DNA of 55,416 nucleotides from an uncultured Methylophilaceae bacterium (lineage in GTDB: Bacteria > Pseudomonadota > Gammaproteobacteria > Burkholderiales > Methylophilaceae), in the NCBI GenBank assembly GCA_905618945.1, contig CAJQTF010000013.1, positions 1 to 55,416 of the forward strand, given 5' to 3'. Below, piece by piece: positions 7,364 through 50,220 of this stretch. The notes below the pieces were generated by a model. The model was not told the origin of the DNA, did not search any database, and saw only the letters and a program-made list of their open reading frames with translations. The position numbers and the translations under genes are program-made. Position 1 is the stretch's first letter, and each line of letters starts with the position of its first letter.

Positions 7364-7885
7364 ATGAGTAGAGCATTTATTAAAGAAAATGATTTAGAGC
7401 ATGCGGGCATTGATATTCCTGAGCGCTCAATTAGTCATGAAAAAAATTATGTAACTCCAACAGGCCTTAAAGAGTTGCGAAATGCAATAGATAATTTAGA
7501 TAAAGAGCGTCAATCATTTTCTGATAATGAAGATTCAAGTGTTAAGCAAAAAAAAATGCGTGTTGAGCGAGAAATTAGATATTTTTCATCTAGACTAAAG
7601 TCTGCAATATTAGTCGACCCTTTAAATCAAAATAAAGAAATAATCTTATTCTCTGCAAAAGTTAAAGTTTTATCAATCGATAATAAAAGCTACGAATTTG
7701 AGATTGTTGGTGAAGATGAGGCAAATATTAAAGAAAATAAGATAAGCTATCTCTCGCCTATTGCAAAATCATTAATCGGAAGCAGAATTAATGATGAAGT
7801 TGTTTGGAATAAACCGTCTGGAAATGAAATATTAACCATAACTAATATATACTACTGCGGGCAAACAAACCCCAATCATTTTTAA
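7364..7885 (+). CDS. GreA/GreB-family transcription factor with shortened coiled coil
   Basis: A 173-residue Gre-fold protein. The opening MSRAFIKENDLE and the KNYVTPTGLKEL segment (about 27-38) match a GreB-like branch of beta- and gammaproteobacteria. The C-terminal globular domain (about 95-165) is well kept (IVGEDEA, ISYLSPIAKSLIGSRINDEV). The N-terminal coiled coil is about a dozen residues shorter than in E. coli GreB and lacks the GDRSENAEY segment at the tip that holds the acidic pair needed for RNA cleavage. It may therefore bind the RNA polymerase secondary channel without normal cleavage activity. That is inference from sequence. It is not a safe match to canonical greB. Confidence 0.8.
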   Translation: MSRAFIKENDLEHAGIDIPERSISHEKNYVTPTGLKELRNAIDNLDKERQSFSDNEDSSVKQKKMRVEREIRYFSSRLKSAILVDPLNQNKEIILFSAKVKVLSIDNKSYEFEIVGEDEANIKENKISYLSPIAKSLIGSRINDEVVWNKPSGNEILTITNIYYCGQTNPNHF

Positions 7886-7907
7886 TTTATAAGTTTAAGG
7901 AAAATTA

Positions 7908-9497
7908 GTGCTAATTACCAATGGCATCACCATGCAGTTTGGCTCAAAACCATTATTTGAAGAAGTCTCAGTTAGGTTCGGTGAGGGAAATCGATACGGC
8001 CTAATTGGAGCGAATGGCTGTGGAAAATCTACTTTTATGAAAATATTAGCAGGGGAATTAGAACCAACAAGTGGTAATCTTGCTTTAGATAACAAAGAGC
8101 GTATTGCATGGTTAAGACAAGATCAGTTTGCTTATGAAGATCTACTTGTAACAAATGTGGTTATGATGGGTCATGAAGCAATGTGGGAAGCTAACGAAGA
8201 AAAAAATAGTTTATACGCCAATCCTGATGCAACAGATGATGATTATATTCGAGCTGCAGAATTGGAAACAGTTTATGCTGAATATGATGGTTATACTGCC
8301 GAATCACGTTCTAGCGAGTTATTAAGTGGTGTAGGAATACCGAATGAGCTTCACAATAAACCAATGAGCGAAGTTCCGCCAGGTTTAAAATTAAGGGTGC
8401 TTTTGGCGCAAGCTTTATTTGCTGATCCTGAAATACTTTTACTTGATGAGCCAACTAATAATTTAGATATTAATACTATTAGATGGTTAGAAAATATCCT
8501 TAATAATCGCAATTCAACAATGATTATTATCTCGCATGATCGACATTTTTTAAATCAAGTTTGTACGCATACAGCAGATATGGATTATAGGAAGCTAACT
8601 ATCTATCCTGGAAATTATGATGACTTTATGGAGGCTAGTACCCTTGTAAAAGCTCAGCAACTAAAAGAAAATGAGAAAGCAAAAGCACAAATTTCTGAAT
8701 TACAAGAGTTTGTGAGAAGGTTTTCAGCGAATGCATCAAAAGCAAAACAGGCTACTTCAAGGGCTAAACAAATAGATAAAATTAAGGTAGAGGAAATGAG
8801 GCCGTCGAGCAGACAATATCCTTACATTCGATTTGAGTACGATGAGAAGGATAAACTTTATCGACAAGCATTAATTGTAAATAAATTAAGTCATGGCTTT
8901 GAAGAACCATTAATTAATAATGTAAATTTTATGGTTGAAGCAGGTGAAAAAATTGCAATCATTGGTGAAAATGGTATTGGGAAATCAACTCTTTTAAAAA
9001 TTCTTGCTAATATAATTAGTCCTAATGATGGATCAATTAAATGGGCTGAAAAAGCTAAAATTGGCTATTTTGCCCAAGACCATTCTGATGATTTTGATTC
9101 GGGTGTCTCAGTTTTTGATTGGATTACCGAGCATCGTAAGTCTACAGACGATGATCAGAGTATTCGTAGCACATTAGGTAGATTATTATTTTCAGGTGAA
9201 GATTTTAAAAAGAAAGTTGATGTCTTATCTGGAGGTGAACAGGGTCGAATGCTCTTTGGCAAACTAATGCTTTCACAAACCAACATATTACTCTTAGATG
9301 AACCGACCAATCATATGGATATGGAGTCCATTGAGTCATTAAATACGGCACTTGAAAAATACAAAGGAACTTTGTTTTTTGTCAGTCATGATAGGGAATT
9401 TGTTAGCTCTATTGCTACCCGAATTTTAGAAATCAAGTCAGATGAAATAATCGATTTTACTGGAAATTACGAAGATTACATTGCTAGCCAAGTTTAA
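7908..9497 (+). CDS. ybiT: ABC-F ATPase, YbiT type
   Basis: A 529-residue soluble protein with two ABC ATPase domains and no membrane segments. Walker A motifs are GANGCGKST (about residues 34-42) and GENGIGKST. Walker B segments are [11 protein letters not shown] and [11 protein letters not shown], and the second signature is LSGGEQGRM. The charged P-site-tRNA-interaction linker lies between the domains (about 245-300). Overall similarity is to E. coli YbiT, including [10 protein letters not shown] and [26 protein letters not shown] proteins bind the ribosome E site and act on translation. The start is GTG at 7908, supported by AAGGA 6 bases upstream. Its stop lies 1 bp from that of convergent typA. 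Confidence 0.93.
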
Positions 9498-9498
9498 A

Positions 9499-11310
9499 TT
9501 AATCCGTTTTTGCTGCTCTTTTTCTCTCGTGCTCAATAAGATAGCGCTTTCTAATTCTTAAAGATTTTGGTGTTATTTCCACAAGCTCATCGTCATCAAT
9601 AAATTCAACAGCATATTCTAGAGTCATCAGGATTGCAGGGACAAGTCTTACTGCCTCATCTGTGCCAGATGAACGAACATTAGTTAGCTGTTTTCCTTTT
9701 ATGGGATTTACGATGAGATCGTTATCTCGACTATGAATTCCTATAACCATACCTTCATATAATTTTTCACCAGGCGAGACCAACATTCTACCTCTCTCCT
9801 GTAATTTCCATAAAGCATAAGCAACTGATTCGCCTTTTTCCGAAGAAATTAAAACGCCATTACGTCGACCTGGCATTTCAGATTTTGCTAGCGCATAATT
9901 CTCAAAGATATGCGACATTACCCCTGTTCCGCGAGTCATTGTTAAAAATTCGCCTTGAAACCCTATTAAACCTCTTGCTGGTATTAGATATTCTAAACGG
10001 GTACGACCTAAACCATCAGACTCCATATTGGTAAGCTCACCCTTACGCCTGCCTAATTCCTCCATAACTGCACCTTGGTTATCATCATCAATATCAACGG
10101 TGAGATTCTCATAAGGCTCGTGTCGTTTGCCATCAACTTCACGATATACTACGCGTGGTTTACCTACAGCTATTTCAAAACCCTCCCTACGCATATTTTC
10201 TAATAAAATAGTTAAATGTAATTCACCTCTACCAGAAACTCTAAAAACATCTGCATCAGACGTATCTTCAACCCTAAGAGCTACATTAACTAACAATTCT
10301 TTTGTTAACCTATCTCTAATCTGTCGACTGGTTACAAATTTACCCTCTTTACCGGCTAAAGGGGAACTGTTCACCATAAAATCCATCGTTAAGGTTGGCT
10401 CATCCACTGGAATTATTGGTAGGCCAGCTGGTTGCTCTGTATCCGCTATTGTTAGGCCAATACCAATATCTTCAAGCCCAGTAATAATTGCAATATCTCC
10501 AGCTTGAGCTTGTGTAACCCCTACTCTATCAAGACCTTTAAATCCAAAAACTTCATTTATTTTCCCTTGGCTAACTTTTTTATCACCAGACATAATTGCA
10601 ACATTCATGCCTGGCTTTAAAATACCATTACGGATTCTTCCTATCGCCATTCGGCCTGTATAAGAAGAATAATCAAGTGCTGAAATTTGAAATTGAAGGG
10701 GGGCTGTTGGATCACCTTCAGGTGACTCTACGTGTTTTAATATAACTTCAAAAAGAGGATTCATATTATCTGACTCTTCTTTTTCATCTAACTTAGCAAA
10801 GCCATTTATTGCTGAAGCATAGATGATTGGAAAATCTAGCTGTTCATCTGTAGCACCTAAATTTGCAAATAAATCAAATGTTTGATTAATAACCCAATCA
10901 CAACGGGCTCCTTGTCTATCAATCTTATTTATTAAAACAATTGGTTTCAACCCTAACGCTAAAGCCTTCTTTGTTACAAATCGAGTTTGTGGCATTGGGC
11001 CTTCAACAGCATCTACTAAAAGGACTACCCCATCAACCATCCCCAAAACTCGCTCAACTTCCCCACCAAAATCAGCATGGCCAGGAGTGTCTACAATATT
11101 AATATGAGTATCTTGATAAGTAACAGCTGTATTCTTTGCTAAAATAGTTATACCACGTTCTTTTTCAAGTTCGTTCGAATCCATAACTCGCTCATTGACT
11201 TGCTGGTGTTGAGCAAATGTTCCGGATTGTTGTAGAAGTTTATCAACAAGAGTTGTTTTGCCGTGATCAACGTGTGCGATAATTGCAATATTTCTTAATT
11301 TGCGAGACAT
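9499..11310 (-). CDS. typA: Translational GTPase TypA/BipA
   Basis: A 603-residue ribosome-binding GTPase. The G domain carries AHVDHGKTT (G1), ERGITI (G2), DTPGHADF (G3) and NKID (G4). EF-G-like domains III and V follow, then the TypA-specific C-terminal domain with the [13 protein letters not shown] region. BipA assists 50S biogenesis and is needed under stress and cold in enterobacteria. Length is typical. It ends 1 bp from the convergent ybiT gene with no terminator visible between them. An extended -10 element lies upstream. Confidence 0.97.
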
Positions 11311-43348: not shown

Positions 43349-44233
43349 TTATCTTTTCATAAATTTGATTAGCGAAGGTAGTGACATATGAGCGATAGTC
43401 AAAGACCCTAAAATAGGAAATATTATCGAATAAAAATCAGCATTCCAATATTCACCATATGTAAACCCAATAAAAAGTATCACTGGCGAAGTAAATAAAA
43501 ATATCCATTTTAAATCAATACTCCAATTAAACTTTGAATCGATTAAAGAACGAACTCCATGAAGCCCACAGAAGTAGATAGCAAACCACACAAACGGATG
43601 AGTAAAATATGAAAGAGTAACTAACACTGTCAGTTCAGAAAGAAATAATATATTTTTATTTTTATGCCAATTAATATTTATATTTGATTTAAGAATATTT
43701 TGTATAACAGCCCAATATATTCTAATAATACTGAGTATTAAAACACAATAAATAACGGCAGCAATTGATTCGGGTATCTTCATACCAATTAAATTATAGA
43801 AAATAGATTCAACTATGTCTTTTTTAAACAACATAGGCAGAAAAGTCATTGTAAATCCCCAAGATAGCTTAATATTAATGTCGGATAAATTAAGGAGTTT
43901 TAAGTCTGCATTGCCAAAATGAAAAACTGACATTATAAGTAATATAACTAGACCTATTATTGGAAAATTAATCCACAATAACCACCCAAATAAAACTAAT
44001 ATCAAATATATAGTAAATAAAATAAACCTTTGAAGGTTCTTATTTATACCCTTCCATATCAATTTGCCATCTAATGCGCCATGACTTACTCCAAGTGTCC
44101 CCACAAAAAAAAGAGCAATCCAGATTAAATAATTTAGATAGGTCTCTTCAAAACTTATAAATAAATTAAGAAATAAAAATAATGATGCAAATAAAATAAA
44201 TAATTGTTGATGAATAATAACTTTATTTAACAT
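43349..44233 (-). CDS. blh: Beta-carotene 15,15'-dioxygenase Blh (retinal-forming)
   Basis: A 294-residue polytopic membrane protein of the Brp/Blh family, which cleaves beta-carotene into two retinals. The conserved metal-ligand histidines are visible in GVSHGALD (His51), FHFG (His105), FCGLHGVRS (His225) and IAHM (His282), set among about eight hydrophobic segments. It is the last gene of the crtE-crtI-crtB-crtY-blh run, overlapping crtY by 11 bp. Its product supplies retinal to the proteorhodopsin encoded upstream on the same strand. Confidence 0.95.
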   Translation of the reverse strand: MLNKVIIHQQLFILFASLFLFLNLFISFEETYLNYLIWIALFFVGTLGVSHGALDGKLIWKGINKNLQRFILFTIYLILVLFGWLLWINFPIIGLVILLIMSVFHFGNADLKLLNLSDINIKLSWGFTMTFLPMLFKKDIVESIFYNLIGMKIPESIAAVIYCVLILSIIRIYWAVIQNILKSNININWHKNKNILFLSELTVLVTLSYFTHPFVWFAIYFCGLHGVRSLIDSKFNWSIDLKWIFLFTSPVILFIGFTYGEYWNADFYSIIFPILGSLTIAHMSLPSLIKFMKR

Positions 44234-45359
44234 ATTTTTTTATTAGGCCATGAATCATTAGTTTTTTTGGCATACTTAAGATTATCAAGAAGATGTCACT
44301 CAAGGTTGGGGCATCAGACATGAATCTAATAATTGATTTAATATCAGCATTACTGAACAATTTCATAAATAAGTTTGGTACTTTTTGAGGCCAAAAATAA
44401 CATACTGTTAGGAAAATGCTATCGAACCATTCTAATAGTTTATTTGGTTTAAATTGAAACTCATTTATATTGTCTTGTTTAATTTTCTTTGATTCAATTG
44501 ATTTGACCCATTGAGCAATCCGCATCATTGAGTAACCTGTAGATGGTCTTGCCATCCCAGCAGACAATCCAATCGGTATATTATTATTATTTATAAATTC
44601 CCTATCAAGAATCATTGGGATGATTCCTCTTTCTTCTTTAATTAGTTTAGTACTTTTATATCTTTTAAGTAATTTTTTCTGCAATTTTTTAATATCAATC
44701 AAGGAAGGTCTTTTCGAAAAAAAGGTTGTTTCAACTAATGCACTTTTTTTAGAAAAAGGAAGGGTGTAGGTAAATTCAACCTCTTTTTTATTGTTAGAGA
44801 AGTTCATTAATTTAATTACTTCAGGATCAAATTGTTCATTCTTAGAAACAATTTCATTACCAACGAATGCCTGCTGAAGGCTTGGTGGTGATTCGTACTG
44901 TTCTTTTGAAATTTTATTTCGACTATCAATTAGATACTTAGTCTTTATAGTAACGTTCTTAGTGATAACTTCAATTAAACCTTTATTATTCTTAATTTTT
45001 CTTACATCTAATCCTTGCTTAATTGAAATTTTATTTTTACATTGATTTAGGAGTTCCTTAAGGGTCTCTTTCCCATCAAAGCATTCATATGAATATGGGC
45101 TGATATCCCTACAAATAGTATCATTTTCATATGACACTTCAATCTTTCTCCACACATGTCTTGGCTTTAGATTGTATATTTTTTTAATATCAATTAAATC
45201 AGGCCCCTGCCAGATACAAAAGGTCTGATTAATATTTTTTTTTATACTTTTTTCAATTAATAGAATAGATTGATCTTTATTTTTAAGAATATACCTAGAT
45301 AAAAACATTAAGCTTGAAAGCCCTGCTCCTATAACGACAATATCGTAGCTTTTACTCAA
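44223..45359 (-). CDS. crtY: Lycopene beta-cyclase CrtY
   Basis: A 378-residue flavoprotein that closes both ends of lycopene to beta-carotene. The N-terminal dinucleotide loop is VVIGAGLSSLMF (8-19), and the segment GLSAGMARPSTGYSMMRI matches the CrtY motif with the PxTGYS core. Very Lys- and Ile-rich, reflecting the AT-rich base composition. It starts in a 4-bp overlap with crtB and ends in an 11-bp overlap with blh. Confidence 0.92.
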   Translation of the reverse strand: MSKSYDIVVIGAGLSSLMFLSRYILKNKDQSILLIEKSIKKNINQTFCIWQGPDLIDIKKIYNLKPRHVWRKIEVSYENDTICRDISPYSYECFDGKETLKELLNQCKNKISIKQGLDVRKIKNNKGLIEVITKNVTIKTKYLIDSRNKISKEQYESPPSLQQAFVGNEIVSKNEQFDPEVIKLMNFSNNKKEVEFTYTLPFSKKSALVETTFFSKRPSLIDIKKLQKKLLKRYKSTKLIKEERGIIPMILDREFINNNNIPIGLSAGMARPSTGYSMMRIAQWVKSIESKKIKQDNINEFQFKPNKLLEWFDSIFLTVCYFWPQKVPNLFMKLFSNADIKSIIRFMSDAPTLSDIFLIILSMPKKLMIHGLIKKYVK

Positions 45360-46219
45360 CTGTTATTTACTCCTGGTAAATTCTGAATAGCACTGTGTAA
45401 TTCTGCATTATGAATAGATAACTTATTATATGATTTTTTAGAAGTGAGGATATTAATTAAGGTTATCTTTAATTTTTCAATTTTGGTAATAAATACTCTG
45501 CTGTCTAAATATGATATTTTTTTATTAATAATTTTTTTACCAATAGCTTGATAGAGTTTTGATGCAACTCTAATGGCTAGTGATGTTTTACCTGGTAAGA
45601 ATGGAATGGCATTTTCTGAGCTTGCGTAATACTTATCAGCTAGAATAAGTAATGACTTTTGACAGGATTGAATTTTTTCAAAAGTCTTCTTATTAGAAAT
45701 ATTCACCTGATTTGCTCTTAAATTCCCAACTAAATTCTGAGGTAAATATATCCTACCCATCGCTGCATCCTCTTTTATATCTCTACATATGTTCGTCAAT
45801 TGCATTGCAATTCCTAAATCAATTGCATAATGACGTATCTTAATATTATTTACCTCTAATGCATCACAAACCATTAGTCCAACAATTCCAGCGACTCTAT
45901 AACAATAAACAATTAGTTCATCAAGTGATTTAGGTTGGGTATGCGACAAATCACTTTGCTGTCCCAACATGAATTGATTCACTATCGCCTTTGTTGGATA
46001 AAACTTTTTCTCTAAATTTACGAACTCTTCTATTTTTTTATGGAAATTATCTTTAAAATTTATATTTTGGTTTTTTTCACTACCATCTACTAAATCATCT
46101 ATTCTTCTGCAGAAAGCATATATTGAAAATAATCTTAATTTAATCGATTTTTCTAGAAAAAAAGATGCCCAATAGAAAGTTTTGCCATATTTTTGTATTA
46201 TTTGGACTTGCTTTTTCAT
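45356..46219 (-). CDS. crtB: Phytoene synthase CrtB
   Basis: A 287-residue squalene/phytoene synthase that condenses two GGPP into phytoene. The first Asp motif is DDLVDG (41-46). The second region is NICRDIKEDAAMGRIYLP (143-160) with Arg146, Asp147 and Asp151 of the NxxRDxxxD pattern. It overlaps crtI by 4 bp and crtY by 4 bp, so it is translated within the retinal operon. Confidence 0.95.
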   Translation of the reverse strand: MKKQVQIIQKYGKTFYWASFFLEKSIKLRLFSIYAFCRRIDDLVDGSEKNQNINFKDNFHKKIEEFVNLEKKFYPTKAIVNQFMLGQQSDLSHTQPKSLDELIVYCYRVAGIVGLMVCDALEVNNIKIRHYAIDLGIAMQLTNICRDIKEDAAMGRIYLPQNLVGNLRANQVNISNKKTFEKIQSCQKSLLILADKYYASSENAIPFLPGKTSLAIRVASKLYQAIGKKIINKKISYLDSRVFITKIEKLKITLINILTSKKSYNKLSIHNAELHSAIQNLPGVNNS

Positions 46220-47682
46220 GAATGAATTATGTTGTCGACAACTTTTGCTGAGTTTAGAACTCCAGGAATTCCAGCGCCTGGATGAGTCCCTGCACCTACA
46301 TAATATAGATTTTTATATTTATCATCTTGATTATGAGTTCTAAACCATGCCGACTGAGTTAGTATTGGCGCAATTGAAAATCCACTCCCATAGGGCGTTC
46401 TATAATCATTTTTAAAATCTAATGGCGTCATACAAAATTTAGAAACAGCATTTGTTAAAATACCGGGCATTATGGTTTTATCTAATGAAGCTAATATCTT
46501 CTCAGAAAAGGCTTCTTTAATCTCATTCCAATTGTAGTTTCCTTTTAAATTCGGAACTGGCACCAAAGCATAGTATGAATCGTGCCCTGCAGGTGCAAAT
46601 GACGAATCAGTAGCTGTAGGTCTATGAAGGTATATTGAGAAATCATCAGCTAAGTGGTGCTTATCAAAAATATCTTCTAATAATTCTTTATATCTAGGGC
46701 CCATCCAAATTGTATGGTGTGCGACATTTTTGTATTGCTTTTTTGAGCCAAAAAATAAAACAAACAACCCCATGGAATGTTTGGCATACCTTTTAAGTAT
46801 TTGGTTGTGCCATGATATTTTGCTGTTTTTAAGAAACTCAGTATTAACTTGGATTGGATCAGCGTTGCTCACAACAATATCAGCCTTTATTTCTTTTCCA
46901 TTTAAAAATTTAACGCTTTGGATAGAATTTTTATTGGTAATAAATTCATCAACATCATGTTTAAGATGAATTTTTATATCGTGTCTCTCCATTAATTTTC
47001 TTAATTCTAAAATAAGGTGATTAGTGCCTCCCATTACAAATGATATACCCCACTTTTGTTCTAATGCATGAATTAATGCATAAATTGAGGATGTCGTAAA
47101 AGGATTACCTCCTACCAAAAGTGGCTGAATTGAAAAAGCCTGTCTTAAATTAGGATGTTCTAGATATTTTGAAACAAAACCATAAACAGATTTATATCCG
47201 CCTAATCTTATAATATCTGGTCCGTACCTTAGCATTTTATAAATTTTGTTAAATGGCTCACTAGCTAGTTTTTCATAACCCAGCTCAAAGATTACCTCTG
47301 CCCTTTTAAGCATTTTTATATAACCGTCAACATCTTTTGGGGATATTTGATCAATTCTTTCTAGCATTTTTTCTCTATCAGGGCCGTAATCAAATTCTGT
47401 TCCATCATTAAAATAAAATCGATACCAAGGATCTAATGGCTGAAAAGTTACATAATTATTTATGTCTTCGCCTAGAAGGCTAAATAATTCGTTAAACAAA
47501 TATGGGGCAGTTATAACCGTTGGGCCTGCGTCATGAAGATAGCCATCTTTACTAAATTTTTGCGCCCGACCACCAAGCTCATTTAATCTTTCGTATATAG
47601 CTACGTCATAACCTCTAGCTTTGAAGCGAATTGCTGATGCTATTCCACCTAAACCGCCTCCAATAATTGCTACATTTTTCAT
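46216..47682 (-). CDS. crtI: Phytoene desaturase CrtI
   Basis: A 488-residue FAD enzyme that desaturates phytoene to lycopene. The N-terminal GGGLGGIASAIRFKARGYDV dinucleotide-binding motif and ELGGRAQ follow the family. The C-terminal YYVGAGTHPGAGIPGVLNSA motif is the CrtI FAD signature. It overlaps crtE (upstream) and crtB (downstream) by 4 bp each. Confidence 0.96.
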   Translation of the reverse strand: MKNVAIIGGGLGGIASAIRFKARGYDVAIYERLNELGGRAQKFSKDGYLHDAGPTVITAPYLFNELFSLLGEDINNYVTFQPLDPWYRFYFNDGTEFDYGPDREKMLERIDQISPKDVDGYIKMLKRAEVIFELGYEKLASEPFNKIYKMLRYGPDIIRLGGYKSVYGFVSKYLEHPNLRQAFSIQPLLVGGNPFTTSSIYALIHALEQKWGISFVMGGTNHLILELRKLMERHDIKIHLKHDVDEFITNKNSIQSVKFLNGKEIKADIVVSNADPIQVNTEFLKNSKISWHNQILKRYAKHSMGLFVLFFGSKKQYKNVAHHTIWMGPRYKELLEDIFDKHHLADDFSIYLHRPTATDSSFAPAGHDSYYALVPVPNLKGNYNWNEIKEAFSEKILASLDKTIMPGILTNAVSKFCMTPLDFKNDYRTPYGSGFSIAPILTQSAWFRTHNQDDKYKNLYYVGAGTHPGAGIPGVLNSAKVVDNIIHS

Positions 47683-48650
47683 TGCTTATCCACCATTAGA
47701 CTTTCCAATCTTGTATTGATCTCATCTTTAATTGAGTTTAGAACAGGTTGGACTACTACAGGGACTCTATGAAATTGTTGTTTTGCATCTTCAAGTAAAT
47801 CATTTATATTGATTTTTTGCTCCTGAAAAGATTCTCTATCAATATGATTAATTAGCAATTTAGGATCTTCTTTTATTTTTAGTTTACTTTCTCGATCTAG
47901 CTTATCTATAATTTTAATCAGCATCCCATTTGGATGATTTTTATAAATATCAGTAAAAATCTCTTGATTGATACCTACTAAATTCTCAACATCGTTTAAG
48001 TACTGATAAGATAAACCCAAGTAATTTGTTGCTTCTTTCAGTCCATCACATTCATCAATTGAGCATTCCCGGCATTTAAACATCCCCATCATTGGAAGCG
48101 CGATGAATGGTGAGGTTTTATTAATTGCCATTTTCATATACTGCTGCCATGACATTTCAAATGTATCAAAACTAATATCTTTAGATTGTCCAAAAATTAT
48201 CTCCTTAACTGAACAAGATAGTAATTTTAATAAAATTGTTTGATGCCAACCCTGCTCAATTTCAGTAATCTTTCTAAAAGATTCAGCAATTAGATAATCA
48301 CCTGTACAAATTGCTGCAGAAATACCATATTCCTTCCAAACACTACTCTGACCTCTGCGAAGTGAGTCTTCATCACATACATCATCGTGCAATAAGGATG
48401 CGCTATGAATTAATTCACAGACTACTGCCCAATTGATATACGTTTGACTTGATAAACCTAATAAACCACCCGTAGCTAAAGATAATCTTGATCTTAACCA
48501 CTTACCTTGTGATTCGCCATGATGAGTAAGCCAAGATGAAAGAAACTTATCATCTACATCAAAACTTTTTGCAAATTCATTCTTTACCTTTTCAAGAAAT
48601 TCGTCTGCTTCTGGGGGCACAAAAGATTCATCCCAATAATTTTTCTTCAT
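47679..48650 (-). CDS. crtE: Polyprenyl diphosphate synthase, CrtE-like (GGPP supply)
   Basis: A 323-residue trans-prenyltransferase expected to make geranylgeranyl diphosphate for carotenoids. The first Asp-rich motif is intact (HDDVCDEDSLRRG, Asp89, Asp90, Asp93). The second motif, normally DDxxD, reads Asn219-Asp-Val-Glu-Asn223 (YLNDVENL), so two of its three aspartates are replaced. I checked the codons (AAC at 219). The basic RSRL near 53-56 and KTS (178-180) are present. Activity is likely because the gene heads a complete pathway, but the active site is unusual. It starts 64 bp after the second rhodopsin gene. Confidence 0.88.
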   Translation of the reverse strand: MKKNYWDESFVPPEADEFLEKVKNEFAKSFDVDDKFLSSWLTHHGESQGKWLRSRLSLATGGLLGLSSQTYINWAVVCELIHSASLLHDDVCDEDSLRRGQSSVWKEYGISAAICTGDYLIAESFRKITEIEQGWHQTILLKLLSCSVKEIIFGQSKDISFDTFEMSWQQYMKMAINKTSPFIALPMMGMFKCRECSIDECDGLKEATNYLGLSYQYLNDVENLVGINQEIFTDIYKNHPNGMLIKIIDKLDRESKLKIKEDPKLLINHIDRESFQEQKININDLLEDAKQQFHRVPVVVQPVLNSIKDEINTRLESLMVDKQ

Positions 48651-48714
48651 AACATTATTTAACCATAAAAAAACGTACTGTATAGACCCGCTTTTTTTAA
48701 GAATATGAAAAGAT

Positions 48715-49452
48715 TTAAGCGCCTATATCAGATTTACGTTGAGCAATCATATAGATCATTACACCAAAAATACCAATTGATAATACATCGGCTATTGTAT
48801 AACCAACTTGGATACTTACATAAGAAGCTTCTTGATTAATCATTGGAAATAAATATATGACTGGATAAAAAGCCCATGAAATAATAAGTAGCCATCTTGA
48901 ATTGCTAACTAAACTTTGAACATTTTTTGGTTGTTTTAATATTGAAGGGCCTAAGCCTTCAACTAAACTATAAAGAATATATGCAAATGGAATCATAGCT
49001 AGTGTCCAATAGATCCAACGATCACCTAGTTGGCTTAAGGCAACTGATCCTTCACCCAAGTAGCCTAAAATAACCATAAATATTGCTGCGAAAACTAGTT
49101 TCGTACCTCTAGAATATGTTTCCTCTTTACTTAGTCGCATGACAAGCACTAATTGAAGTAACAGCAAAGGAACAGTTAATAGCCAACCAACATAGCGGTA
49201 AGCAACATTAAATTGAGTACCCGATGCTAAGACCTCACCATATAATAACGTGTAAGCATCATTGAAGCTTTCAAACATTCTTAAGTGATGATAGAAAGCA
49301 ATTAGGCACACCAAACCAGATAATGTGAGAGCCGTCTTATATGCTGGAGCGACTTGCGAGCGCTGTGCAAAAAAGAAAACTGTACTTGCACCAAATGTTG
49401 CTATTGCAAAAGATAACGAGTTATATATTAAGTTAAAATCTACTAGCTGCAT
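48715..49452 (-). CDS. Xanthorhodopsin-like seven-helix protein without the retinal lysine
   Basis: A 245-residue seven-helix microbial rhodopsin homologue of the xanthorhodopsin branch (IAFYHHLRMF in helix B, RYVGWLLTVPLL in helix C, VGYTIADVLSIGIFG in helix G). The Schiff-base lysine position is Ile226 (ATT). The proton acceptor is Gly89 (GGT; usually Asp GAT) and the donor Gln100 (CAA; usually Glu). Arg86, Thr93, His55 and Asp222 are kept. The carotenoid-antenna glycine of xanthorhodopsin aligns with Trp149. The start is ATG 49452 with GGGAGA just upstream, not the in-frame TTG at 49464. It cannot bind retinal by the normal Schiff base. The frame is intact and sits between proteorhodopsin and crtE. 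Confidence 0.93.
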   Translation of the reverse strand: MQLVDFNLIYNSLSFAIATFGASTVFFFAQRSQVAPAYKTALTLSGLVCLIAFYHHLRMFESFNDAYTLLYGEVLASGTQFNVAYRYVGWLLTVPLLLLQLVLVMRLSKEETYSRGTKLVFAAIFMVILGYLGEGSVALSQLGDRWIYWTLAMIPFAYILYSLVEGLGPSILKQPKNVQSLVSNSRWLLIISWAFYPVIYLFPMINQEASYVSIQVGYTIADVLSIGIFGVMIYMIAQRKSDIGA

Positions 49453-49475
49453 CTTATCTCCCAATTTGTATCCTC

Positions 49476-49506
49476 AAAAAAAAACGCGCCATTCTTGGCG
49501 CGTTTT
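49476..49506 (-). terminator. Hairpin terminator between proteorhodopsin and the second rhodopsin
   Basis: Perfect 10-bp stem AAAACGCGCC (49481-49490) / GGCGCGTTTT (49497-49506), 6-base loop, and a nine-T run on the minus strand (49476-49484). It lies 33 bp after the proteorhodopsin stop and 24 bp before the next ATG. It should end most proteorhodopsin transcripts and lower expression of the downstream genes. Confidence 0.9.
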
Positions 49507-49539
49507 CTAAATTACCTTATTCAAGCACTAAAGCTTCTA

Positions 49540-50220
49540 TTAAGCTTTTGAACCTGATGTTGCTGCAGCCCATATAACTACACCGAATGCTATCTTATTA
49601 ACAAAATCAGCTAAGTTATAAATTAAGTTCAAAGTACCTGCATCTGCACTACCGGTATAACCGAGGTAATATCCAAGTGGATATATAGCCCAACCAACAG
49701 TCACAATAAGTCTTAAAGCATTAAATGCTTTTTTACTTGCTGCTGTACCCTTGCTTGCACTTATTTTACTAGCCTCGCCTACGAATATTTCGTAGATGAT
49801 GTATAACCAAGCTATCATACCTACAGTAAAGCCAGACCATAAACCTACGGTACCAACTTCGCCAAGATAACCGGCAACCAACATAACCACTGAGGCAATA
49901 AGTAGACGCCAAAATACTGACATTGCGACAACTGCAATAGCAGCTAGGATTAGATAGAACTCAACAATCTGAAGTGGTACTGTTAAAAGCCAATCTACAT
50001 ACCTAAATACTGTTGGAGAAGCGCCTGTATCTATCCAAATTCCTCTCATATAAAAATAGTGAATTGCTGCTATACCTGTAACCATTGCAGCAACTGTAAG
50101 TGATGTTTTCCATTTCCCTACAGCTCTATCTCTTTCTACCCAGAAAAAAAACGTTGCAGCTACCATTGCCGCAGATAAAAGCCAGAAGCTTACCCCGACA
50201 AAATCATTTGGATCTAACAT
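49540..50220 (-). CDS. Proteorhodopsin, light-driven proton pump, blue-tuned
   Basis: A 226-residue seven-helix retinal protein of the proteorhodopsin type. Helix C reads RYVDWLLTVPLQIVE with Asp76 (acceptor), Thr80 and Glu87 (donor). Gln84 is at the tuning site (105 in the SAR86 protein), where Gln gives blue and Leu green absorption. His54 (partner of the acceptor), Asp205 and the Schiff-base Lys209 (YNLADFVNK) are intact. It has a strong AGGAGAG ribosome site. It pumps protons outward in the light, adding to the proton motive force. Retinal comes from the crt-blh genes downstream on the same strand. GC content is higher than in the crt genes. Confidence 0.98.
   Translation of the reverse strand: MLDPNDFVGVSFWLLSAAMVAATFFFWVERDRAVGKWKTSLTVAAMVTGIAAIHYFYMRGIWIDTGASPTVFRYVDWLLTVPLQIVEFYLILAAIAVVAMSVFWRLLIASVVMLVAGYLGEVGTVGLWSGFTVGMIAWLYIIYEIFVGEASKISASKGTAASKKAFNALRLIVTVGWAIYPLGYYLGYTGSADAGTLNLIYNLADFVNKIAFGVVIWAAATSGSKA

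Follow-up and report, generated by a model that had tools for sequence, protein, structure and literature searches.

The noK gene, located between the proteorhodopsin (PR) gene and the retinal synthesis genes of an uncultured Methylophilaceae bacterium, codes for a rhodopsin without the retinal-binding lysine. Its identification as a former xanthorhodopsin (XR) proton pump is well supported, and its sequence features suggest that its product could now be a low-abundance protein that binds retinal non-covalently and buffers or delivers it, a reading to which we give a probability of roughly 0.4. The ancestry of noK, the selection acting on it, the conservation of its retinal pocket and its operon slot were established by computational analyses. 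The window analyzed, a stretch of 55,416 nucleotides (contig CAJQTF010000013.1), contains a minus-strand block of seven genes, PR, noK, crtE, crtI, crtB, crtY, and blh (Table 1), which confirmed the placement of the lysine-less gene between PR and the retinal genes made in a first-pass annotation of this DNA. PR has Gln at its spectral-tuning site, a residue typical of the blue type. The noK genomes share this gene order to the extent that their contigs cover it. In one of them (G028; L035, about 7773-11126), the crtI, crtB, and crtY matches lie in several pieces, as if their frames were broken, unlike PR and noK, which are whole there.

Table 1. Features of the PR-noK-crt-blh block and its hairpins (positions in the window).
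Feature	Position	Strand	Evidence
blh, beta-carotene 15,15'-dioxygenase (makes retinal)	43349..44233	-	TIGR03753 above cut-off
crtY, lycopene cyclase	44223..45359	-	PF05834
crtB, phytoene synthase	45356..46219	-	PF00494
crtI, phytoene desaturase	46216..47682	-	TIGR02734 above cut-off
crtE-type polyprenyl (GGPP) synthase	47679..48650	-	PF00348
Weak hairpin + T run 3' of noK	48667..48698	-	fold z -0.5
noK, lysine-less xanthorhodopsin-type rhodopsin, 245 aa	48715..49452	-	ORF, PF01036, residues, model
noK ribosome binding site GGGAG, 5 bases 5' of ATG	49458..49462	-	read from sequence
Intrinsic terminator between PR and noK, 13-pair hairpin, GC core CGCGCC/GGCGCG, T run	49476..49508	-	fold
PR, Asp/Thr/Glu motif, Lys, Gln at spectral-tuning site	49540..50220	-	ORF, family scan, residues, tree

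The noK gene runs from an ATG at 49452 to a stop codon at 48715-48717. An intact rhodopsin homolog had indeed been recognized at this place, its strand being left unstated; the plus-strand translation of the same segment contains many stops, and the mechanically called ORF begins at a TTG four codons 5' of the ATG. The gene has the ribosome site of its own that had been attributed to it, and a G-rich stretch precedes the ATG in 12 of its 13 orthologs (see below), the remaining one, from G010, ending at a contig end. Codons read directly from the sequence agreed with the residue assignments made earlier: the lysine position of helix G is Ile226 (ATT, 48775-48777), the acceptor position Gly89 (GGT, 49186-49188) and the donor position Gln100 (CAA, 49153-49155), and noK thus has none of the acceptor Asp, donor Glu, and lysine of a pump. 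Arg86, Thr93, His55, and Asp222 are all retained and, as had been proposed, so are the seven helices, according to the alignment and to an AlphaFold2 model built from a 22-row alignment (mean pLDDT 87.4; seven long helices). Together with a significant match to PF01036 in a Pfam scan (113 bits, E 1.9e-32, cut-off 24.6), this assigned the protein to the type 1 rhodopsin fold, and with Ile226 it falls outside the retinal-binding members of that fold. The absence of a covalent retinal site had been claimed with the reservation that another lysine of helix G might serve; none was found inside the helix, and Lys240, near the helix end, is common to the 24 lysine-bearing Methylophilaceae relatives aligned.

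Rhodopsins were found in 54 of the 187 genomes of the family. Within the window's genus (OM43-type), 26 of the 31 genomes carried one and five had no match. A PR whose tuning residue is Gln was present in 13 of these 26, and all 13 also contained noK (that of G010 spread over two contig ends); co-occurrence of noK with PR and blh had been put forward for survey, and the pairing with PR is complete in this genus. In the other 13, several genomes of the genus being incomplete and absence of PR being certain only in closed ones, the sole rhodopsin was a lysine-bearing XR, which was complete in 12 genomes, with all of Asp, Glu, and Lys, and a lysine-containing fragment in G004. Alignment across the genus showed Ile (12/13) or Leu (1/13) at the lysine position and Gly (11/13) or Ser (2/13) at the acceptor position of the noK orthologs; lysine and acceptor being gone in all 13, noK is not the artifact of one genome. 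The donor position was occupied by Glu in 10 orthologs and by Gln in three (the window, G017, and G018). Consequently, of the three residues first described as missing, lysine and acceptor are lost throughout, and donor loss does not stand as a characteristic of noK. Gln is present at the donor position also in one XR (L081) of the genus g15. Frameshifts, which had been named as possible evidence against function, were absent from the 13 orthologs (that of G010 being cut by the contig end).

The genus g15, presumably Methylopumilus-type from the PR-XR-crt order described in the consulted part of PMC6794327, carries another PR, accompanied by an XR whose 12 full-length copies all retain Asp and lysine. 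Its thirteenth XR (G086; L084, C36) is split into two frames of 72 and 168 aa, which may be an assembly error of this draft genome. In the survey of the order, few genomes carried any rhodopsin of the queried kind (12 of 399 matched the query), and among these matches noK was not found outside the window's genus: six matches besides the window's genome were in the family set, all with lysine, and the remaining five were lysine-bearing PRs. Two other rhodopsins of the family were observed. One is a second rhodopsin frame adjoining PR in another Methylophilaceae genome (L030, about 393-1011; G046:C15:2592-3281); it is broken by a TGA, and its donor residue is Lys (DTK-like motif). The other (L067; G170:C261:1651-2316) is a divergent rhodopsin that retains the lysine and stands far from the family's other PRs; its tuning residue is Met and its fenestration residue Gly.

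In a 49-row tree, the 13 noK proteins formed one clade (support 99/98) that clustered with xanthorhodopsins rather than with proteorhodopsins, and the lysine column required at least two changes (lysine versus Ile, plus a change from Ile to Leu in G012). The best matches of noK among solved structures were psXR, Kin4B8, xanthorhodopsin, and Gloeobacter rhodopsin (198-201 bits), green PR giving only 95 bits, which indicated that noK derives from XR stock. Its position beside the other Methylophilaceae XRs was weak (82/66), and the AU test kept trees joining noK to its three nearest lysine-bearing lineages (0.177) or to all XRs of the genus (0.445). A tree of a gene that we take from its sequence to be glnS (18 genomes, six with noK) neither showed nor denied the noK genomes as one clade. 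Given this weak placement and the undecided glnS tree, we infer the direction and timing of PR gain relative to lysine loss. Since the lysine loss is one event, the co-occurrence of noK and PR has no independent replicates.

The first-pass annotation had taken noK for an intact gene under selection and had proposed dN/dS as a check. In the calculations made here, as in the XR tree, identical proteins were counted once and both G086 pieces, the G004 fragment, and L055 were omitted. Separate codon models gave dN/dS values of 0.076 for noK, 0.033 for the OM43-type lysine-bearing XR, 0.064 for the g15 XR, 0.048 for blue PR (13 rows) and 0.044 for green PR (10 rows); our own implementation of the codon model matched the IQ-TREE likelihood for noK. 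When 37 sequences were placed on a joint tree, dN/dS was 0.078 in the noK crown and 0.046 in the rest, and setting omega to 1 in the crown was rejected at a cost of about 578 lnL units. The estimates of 0.076-0.079 for noK are thus far from 1, in agreement with selection, and together with the 13 unbroken copies they led us to reject a pseudogene. On the branch joining noK to the other sequences, which spans both sides of the split and whose synonymous sites are probably near saturation, the fit favored an omega of at least 1, its estimate reaching the bound of 20; forcing the crown omega on this branch cost 2dlnL 7.2. With moderate confidence, this points to a burst of change on the branch of lysine loss.

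The retinal pocket was analyzed at the 22 retinal-lining positions of bacteriorhodopsin (BR). The noK clade showed a single change over these sites (21/22 unchanged) versus 0.99 per site elsewhere in the membrane; the lysine-bearing clades showed 0.23 per pocket site versus 1.23 per site elsewhere in the membrane. The counterparts of BR R82, W86, T89, M118, G122, W138, W182, Y185, P186, and D212 are invariant in the 13 noK proteins. Fifteen sites are diagnostic of noK (at most two residues, none shared with the 24 lysine-bearing relatives), and three of them line the retinal: D85 changed to Gly/Ser, A215 to Ser, and K216 to Ile/Leu. The remaining ones, including W137 to Tyr, lie mostly from helix D onward. 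The changes at D85 and K216 are predicted to remove jointly the Schiff-base lysine and the main counterion and, judged by side-chain size alone, the three replacements would leave the pocket unfilled. When only sites invariant in the 24 lysine-bearing relatives were compared, noK kept 16/18 in the pocket versus 54/69 in the rest of the membrane (p 0.51); from these counts, the noK pocket appears not to be relaxed, yet no tighter than equally old sites by the matched test. The conserved pocket residues may serve folding alone.

Two other ways of holding a pigment were considered and disfavored. The fenestration position (BR 138) is Trp149 in all 13 noK proteins, being Trp in 24/24 lysine-bearing Methylophilaceae relatives and Gly in 7/9 outgroup XRs; noK therefore lacks the fenestration glycine of a carotenoid antenna, and the carotenoid binding suggested earlier is disfavored as far as an antenna role is concerned. 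Lysine-less bacteriorhodopsin mutants hold a free-amine Schiff base, and methylamine would be at hand in a methylotroph. A free-amine Schiff base without lysine is disfavored for noK, in which Ile/Leu occupies the place of the lysine and the counterion Asp is lost.

PR and noK are separated by an intrinsic terminator with the sequence AAAACGCGCC-AAGAAT-GGCGCGTTTTTTTTT, which had a fold z of -4.3, none of 200 shuffles being as stable. Its core pattern occurs once in the window's own assembly (1 Mb, 78% complete), and the hairpin lies at the same position in 13/13 noK genomes. Using a threshold of -12 kcal/mol or stronger, a strong terminator was found 3' of PR in 13/13 noK genomes and 3' of noK in 0/13. 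In the OM43-type genomes without PR, a strong terminator follows the lysine-bearing XR (12/12; 9/9 in a rescan), and the one in G004 was also seen by eye. In g15, PR is followed by a hairpin that differs from this one (12/12), and XR never by a strong one (0/12). No strong terminator was detected 3' of crtE, crtI, crtB, crtY, or blh across the genomes used for the slot scan, and in the shuffle control 1 of 860 sequences had one. A generic terminator scan gave 3 sites versus 3.3 expected by chance and missed the PR-noK hairpin, probably because the T run is absorbed into the stem under its rule. The weak hairpin 3' of noK is probably a remnant of the ancestral terminator; G020 still has a hairpin of -10.8 kcal/mol at this place, and G010, G012, G022, G027, and G030 have a short gap only.

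The simplest reading of this arrangement is a pump located 5' of the terminator with retinal synthesis behind it, and noK has apparently left the pump slot for the retinal-synthesis slot. The earlier view of noK as part of one operon with PR and the retinal genes holds as regards the shared block; simple co-transcription with PR does not, given the strong terminator in between. Lower expression of noK behind the terminator would be expected; in the consulted part of a report on an OM43 isolate, rhodopsin transcripts were high and regulated (PMC5120137). Position in this slot is not sufficient to explain why lysine was lost, since the XR of g15 occupies it with its lysine intact. In a slot model comparing three clades only, dN/dS was 0.033 for the XR 5' of the terminator and, behind the terminator, 0.079 for noK and 0.061 for the g15 XR. 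Setting the pump-slot clade apart gained 2dlnL 30.7, setting noK alone apart gained 21.3, and a single rate for noK and the g15 XR cost 3.5, which was not significant; relaxation in noK is therefore not clearly greater than in a lysine-bearing XR of the same slot. This second rhodopsin of g15 (e.g., L110-L113), behind a strong terminator and with raised dN/dS, may hence be a low-abundance protein and not the main pump.

The conserved pocket and the place behind the terminator suggest, as sequence evidence, a role in pigment handling rather than in pumping. The origin of noK is well supported: in one sub-lineage of OM43-type marine methylotrophs, the pump slot 5' of the terminator is taken by a blue-type PR, and the old pump lies behind it with the retinal-synthesis genes. 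This old pump has lost its retinal lysine and acceptor aspartate once and has afterward been kept by strong purifying selection. With its pocket residues retained and without the charged pair for a protonated Schiff base, noK would bind neutral retinal or a close retinoid non-covalently; its abundance would be matched to that of the synthesis enzymes, that is, low, and it would store retinal or pass it from Blh to the abundant PR apoprotein. Non-covalent retinal binding is what the kept pocket, the missing Schiff-base groups, the location of the gene beside the retinal enzymes, and the presence of a PR to feed point to in combination. The more specific form of this proposal, that a disused rhodopsin became a carrier which holds neutral retinal reversibly and feeds PR from the synthesis unit, is offered tentatively and with more doubt. 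We know of no bacterial retinal chaperone.

The main rival explanation is that noK is a pigment-less subunit in a mixed oligomer with PR, tuning its pumping, a speculation of the discoverers of Rh-noK according to the consulted part of PMC10308929; we consider it unlikely, although several observations agree with it. noK is paired with PR in every noK genome, and helices A-C are its most conserved ones (9, 10, and 6 changes versus 25-36 in D-G). These helices form the pentamer interface in this rhodopsin family. In addition, His55, whose counterpart in relatives contacts the neighboring protomer or the acceptor Asp, is kept in 13/13 noK proteins though that Asp is lost. However, helices A-C are about equally conserved in the lysine-bearing XRs (14, 12, and 6 changes), and hence give no special signal; noK is only 29% identical to its own PR and belongs to another pump family; and the strong terminator between both genes makes equal amounts unlikely, a minor subunit being still compatible with it. 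Mirror trees, which are weak evidence (12 of the 13 noK genomes, 11 for crtY and blh), revealed no clear special link between noK and PR, the correlation of noK with PR (0.73) being close to those with blh (0.72) and crtY (0.70) and below that of PR with blh (0.87). Furthermore, in G017 PR groups with one sub-clade (89, quick tree) and noK with another (100/100), which indicates that PR and noK were not always inherited together and would be a sign of recombination between them.

An improbable alternative is that noK is a ligand or ion sensor, its emptied pocket accepting another small molecule. Other lysine-less opsins have been proposed as non-light sensors in the consulted parts of PMC10308929 and PMC4915679, and the loss of acceptor and lysine plus the diagnostic changes, mostly from helix D onward, could remodel the site. 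On the other hand, none of the six proteins neighboring noK matched a transducer, kinase, or chemotaxis family in the family scan, and the retinal-lining aromatics that noK keeps would hardly be needed for a quite different ligand. Quite improbable is a role as a membrane scaffold or partner for the enzymes of carotenoid and retinal synthesis, proposed earlier for CrtI-CrtY-Blh and consistent with noK sharing a block with crtE-I-B-Y-blh 3' of the PR terminator. The proteins of G016 and G017 (L032, L033) disfavor it: compared with the window, their noK is 85-87%, their PR 89-90%, and their crtB only 46-48% identical, which means that the synthesis genes were exchanged or diverged while PR and noK stayed. 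The synthesis genes behind noK thus belong to groups that differ deeply, which suggests, by sequence comparison, an exchange of the crt cassette. Mirror-tree correlations of noK with crtE (0.54) and crtI (0.50) are likewise below that with PR, blh being about equal to PR and crtB reaching 0.64. Finally, that noK is a dying functionless gene, kept for a while by its operon position, would agree with its lost activity, its decayed terminator, and a dN/dS above that of the pump-slot XR, but is highly improbable in view of the rejection of omega = 1 in its crown, the 0/13 broken copies, identities to the noK of the window as low as 66%, which imply long retention, and a dN/dS not significantly different from that of the lysine-bearing XR in the same slot.

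To our knowledge, how bacteria bring retinal, a hydrophobic and reactive aldehyde, from Blh to the opsin is an open question. As a non-covalent retinal binder, noK would be a concrete candidate for this retinal handling in marine OM43-type bacteria, and its close relatives provide a natural comparison, since they keep the gene with its pump residues and differ at the lysine, the acceptor, and the operon slot.

The class of lysine-less rhodopsins to which noK belongs is already known: the name Rh-noK, mentioned in the first-pass annotation, was given in the literature (Yamauchi et al., 2019, Photochem Photobiol, doi 10.1111/php.13114, as cited in PMC10308929 and PMC7714340). In the consulted parts of these two accounts, Rh-noK is XR-related, lacks the retinal lysine, comes from marine betaproteobacteria, and lies in tandem with a functional PR and retinal genes. 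This definition applies to noK, the likeness being one of description. With the lysine restored, Rh-noK is a retinal-binding proton pump according to the part of PMC10308929 consulted. In the same portions of both accounts we found no terminator between the genes, slot shift, or selection history; in the literature searched, no title or abstract reported the slot shift and selection history of noK, and a search for a terminator with the proteorhodopsin and retinal biosynthesis operon gave no match. The main texts of two papers on Methylophilaceae make no mention of rhodopsin. In the part of Salcher et al. (PMC6794327) consulted, Methylopumilus has the lysine in each of its two rhodopsins, and the only rhodopsin of marine OM43 is XR-like, statements that fit g15 and the OM43-type genomes without PR, and not the window's lineage with PR plus noK.

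The nearest relatives of noK are the lysine-bearing XRs of the OM43-type genomes and g15, which share 58-72% identity and the same place 5' of crtE. Unlike noK, they keep Asp and Lys (donor Glu in 23/24, Gln in 1/24), and those of the OM43-type genomes without PR lie 5' of the terminator, noK being behind it. Xanthorhodopsin (3DDL), Kin4B8 (7YTB), psXR (9WFA), and Gloeobacter rhodopsin (6NWD) are 44-46% identical to noK and match its model with TM 0.92-0.94 (0.94 for psXR); these are retinal pumps, whereas noK lacks the lysine and has Trp at the fenestration. The PDB titles of 3DDL and of the Kin4B8 entry 8I2Z give a second chromophore, a carotenoid in 8I2Z. We take that of 3DDL to be a carotenoid as well.

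Flotillin-associated rhodopsins, as described in the consulted part of PMC10308929, resemble noK in being second rhodopsins of streamlined aquatic bacteria, some without lysine, but belong to the proteorhodopsin family and have another gene context, and their pocket residues are predicted to clash with retinal. noK is nearest to XR, and a Pfam scan found no flotillin among the seven proteins of its block. Haloarchaeal opsin-related proteins, according to the part of PMC4915679 consulted, also have the lysine replaced (by Arg, Leu, or other hydrophobics), and their genes are intact and expressed. In contrast to noK, they are kin of sensory opsins, one group adjoining transducers, and their pocket aromatics are lost; the counterparts of BR W86, W182, and Y185 are present in all 13 noK proteins. 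The case of noK suggests that loss of the lysine need not be accompanied by loss of the pocket, as it is in the haloarchaeal and flotillin-associated rhodopsins.
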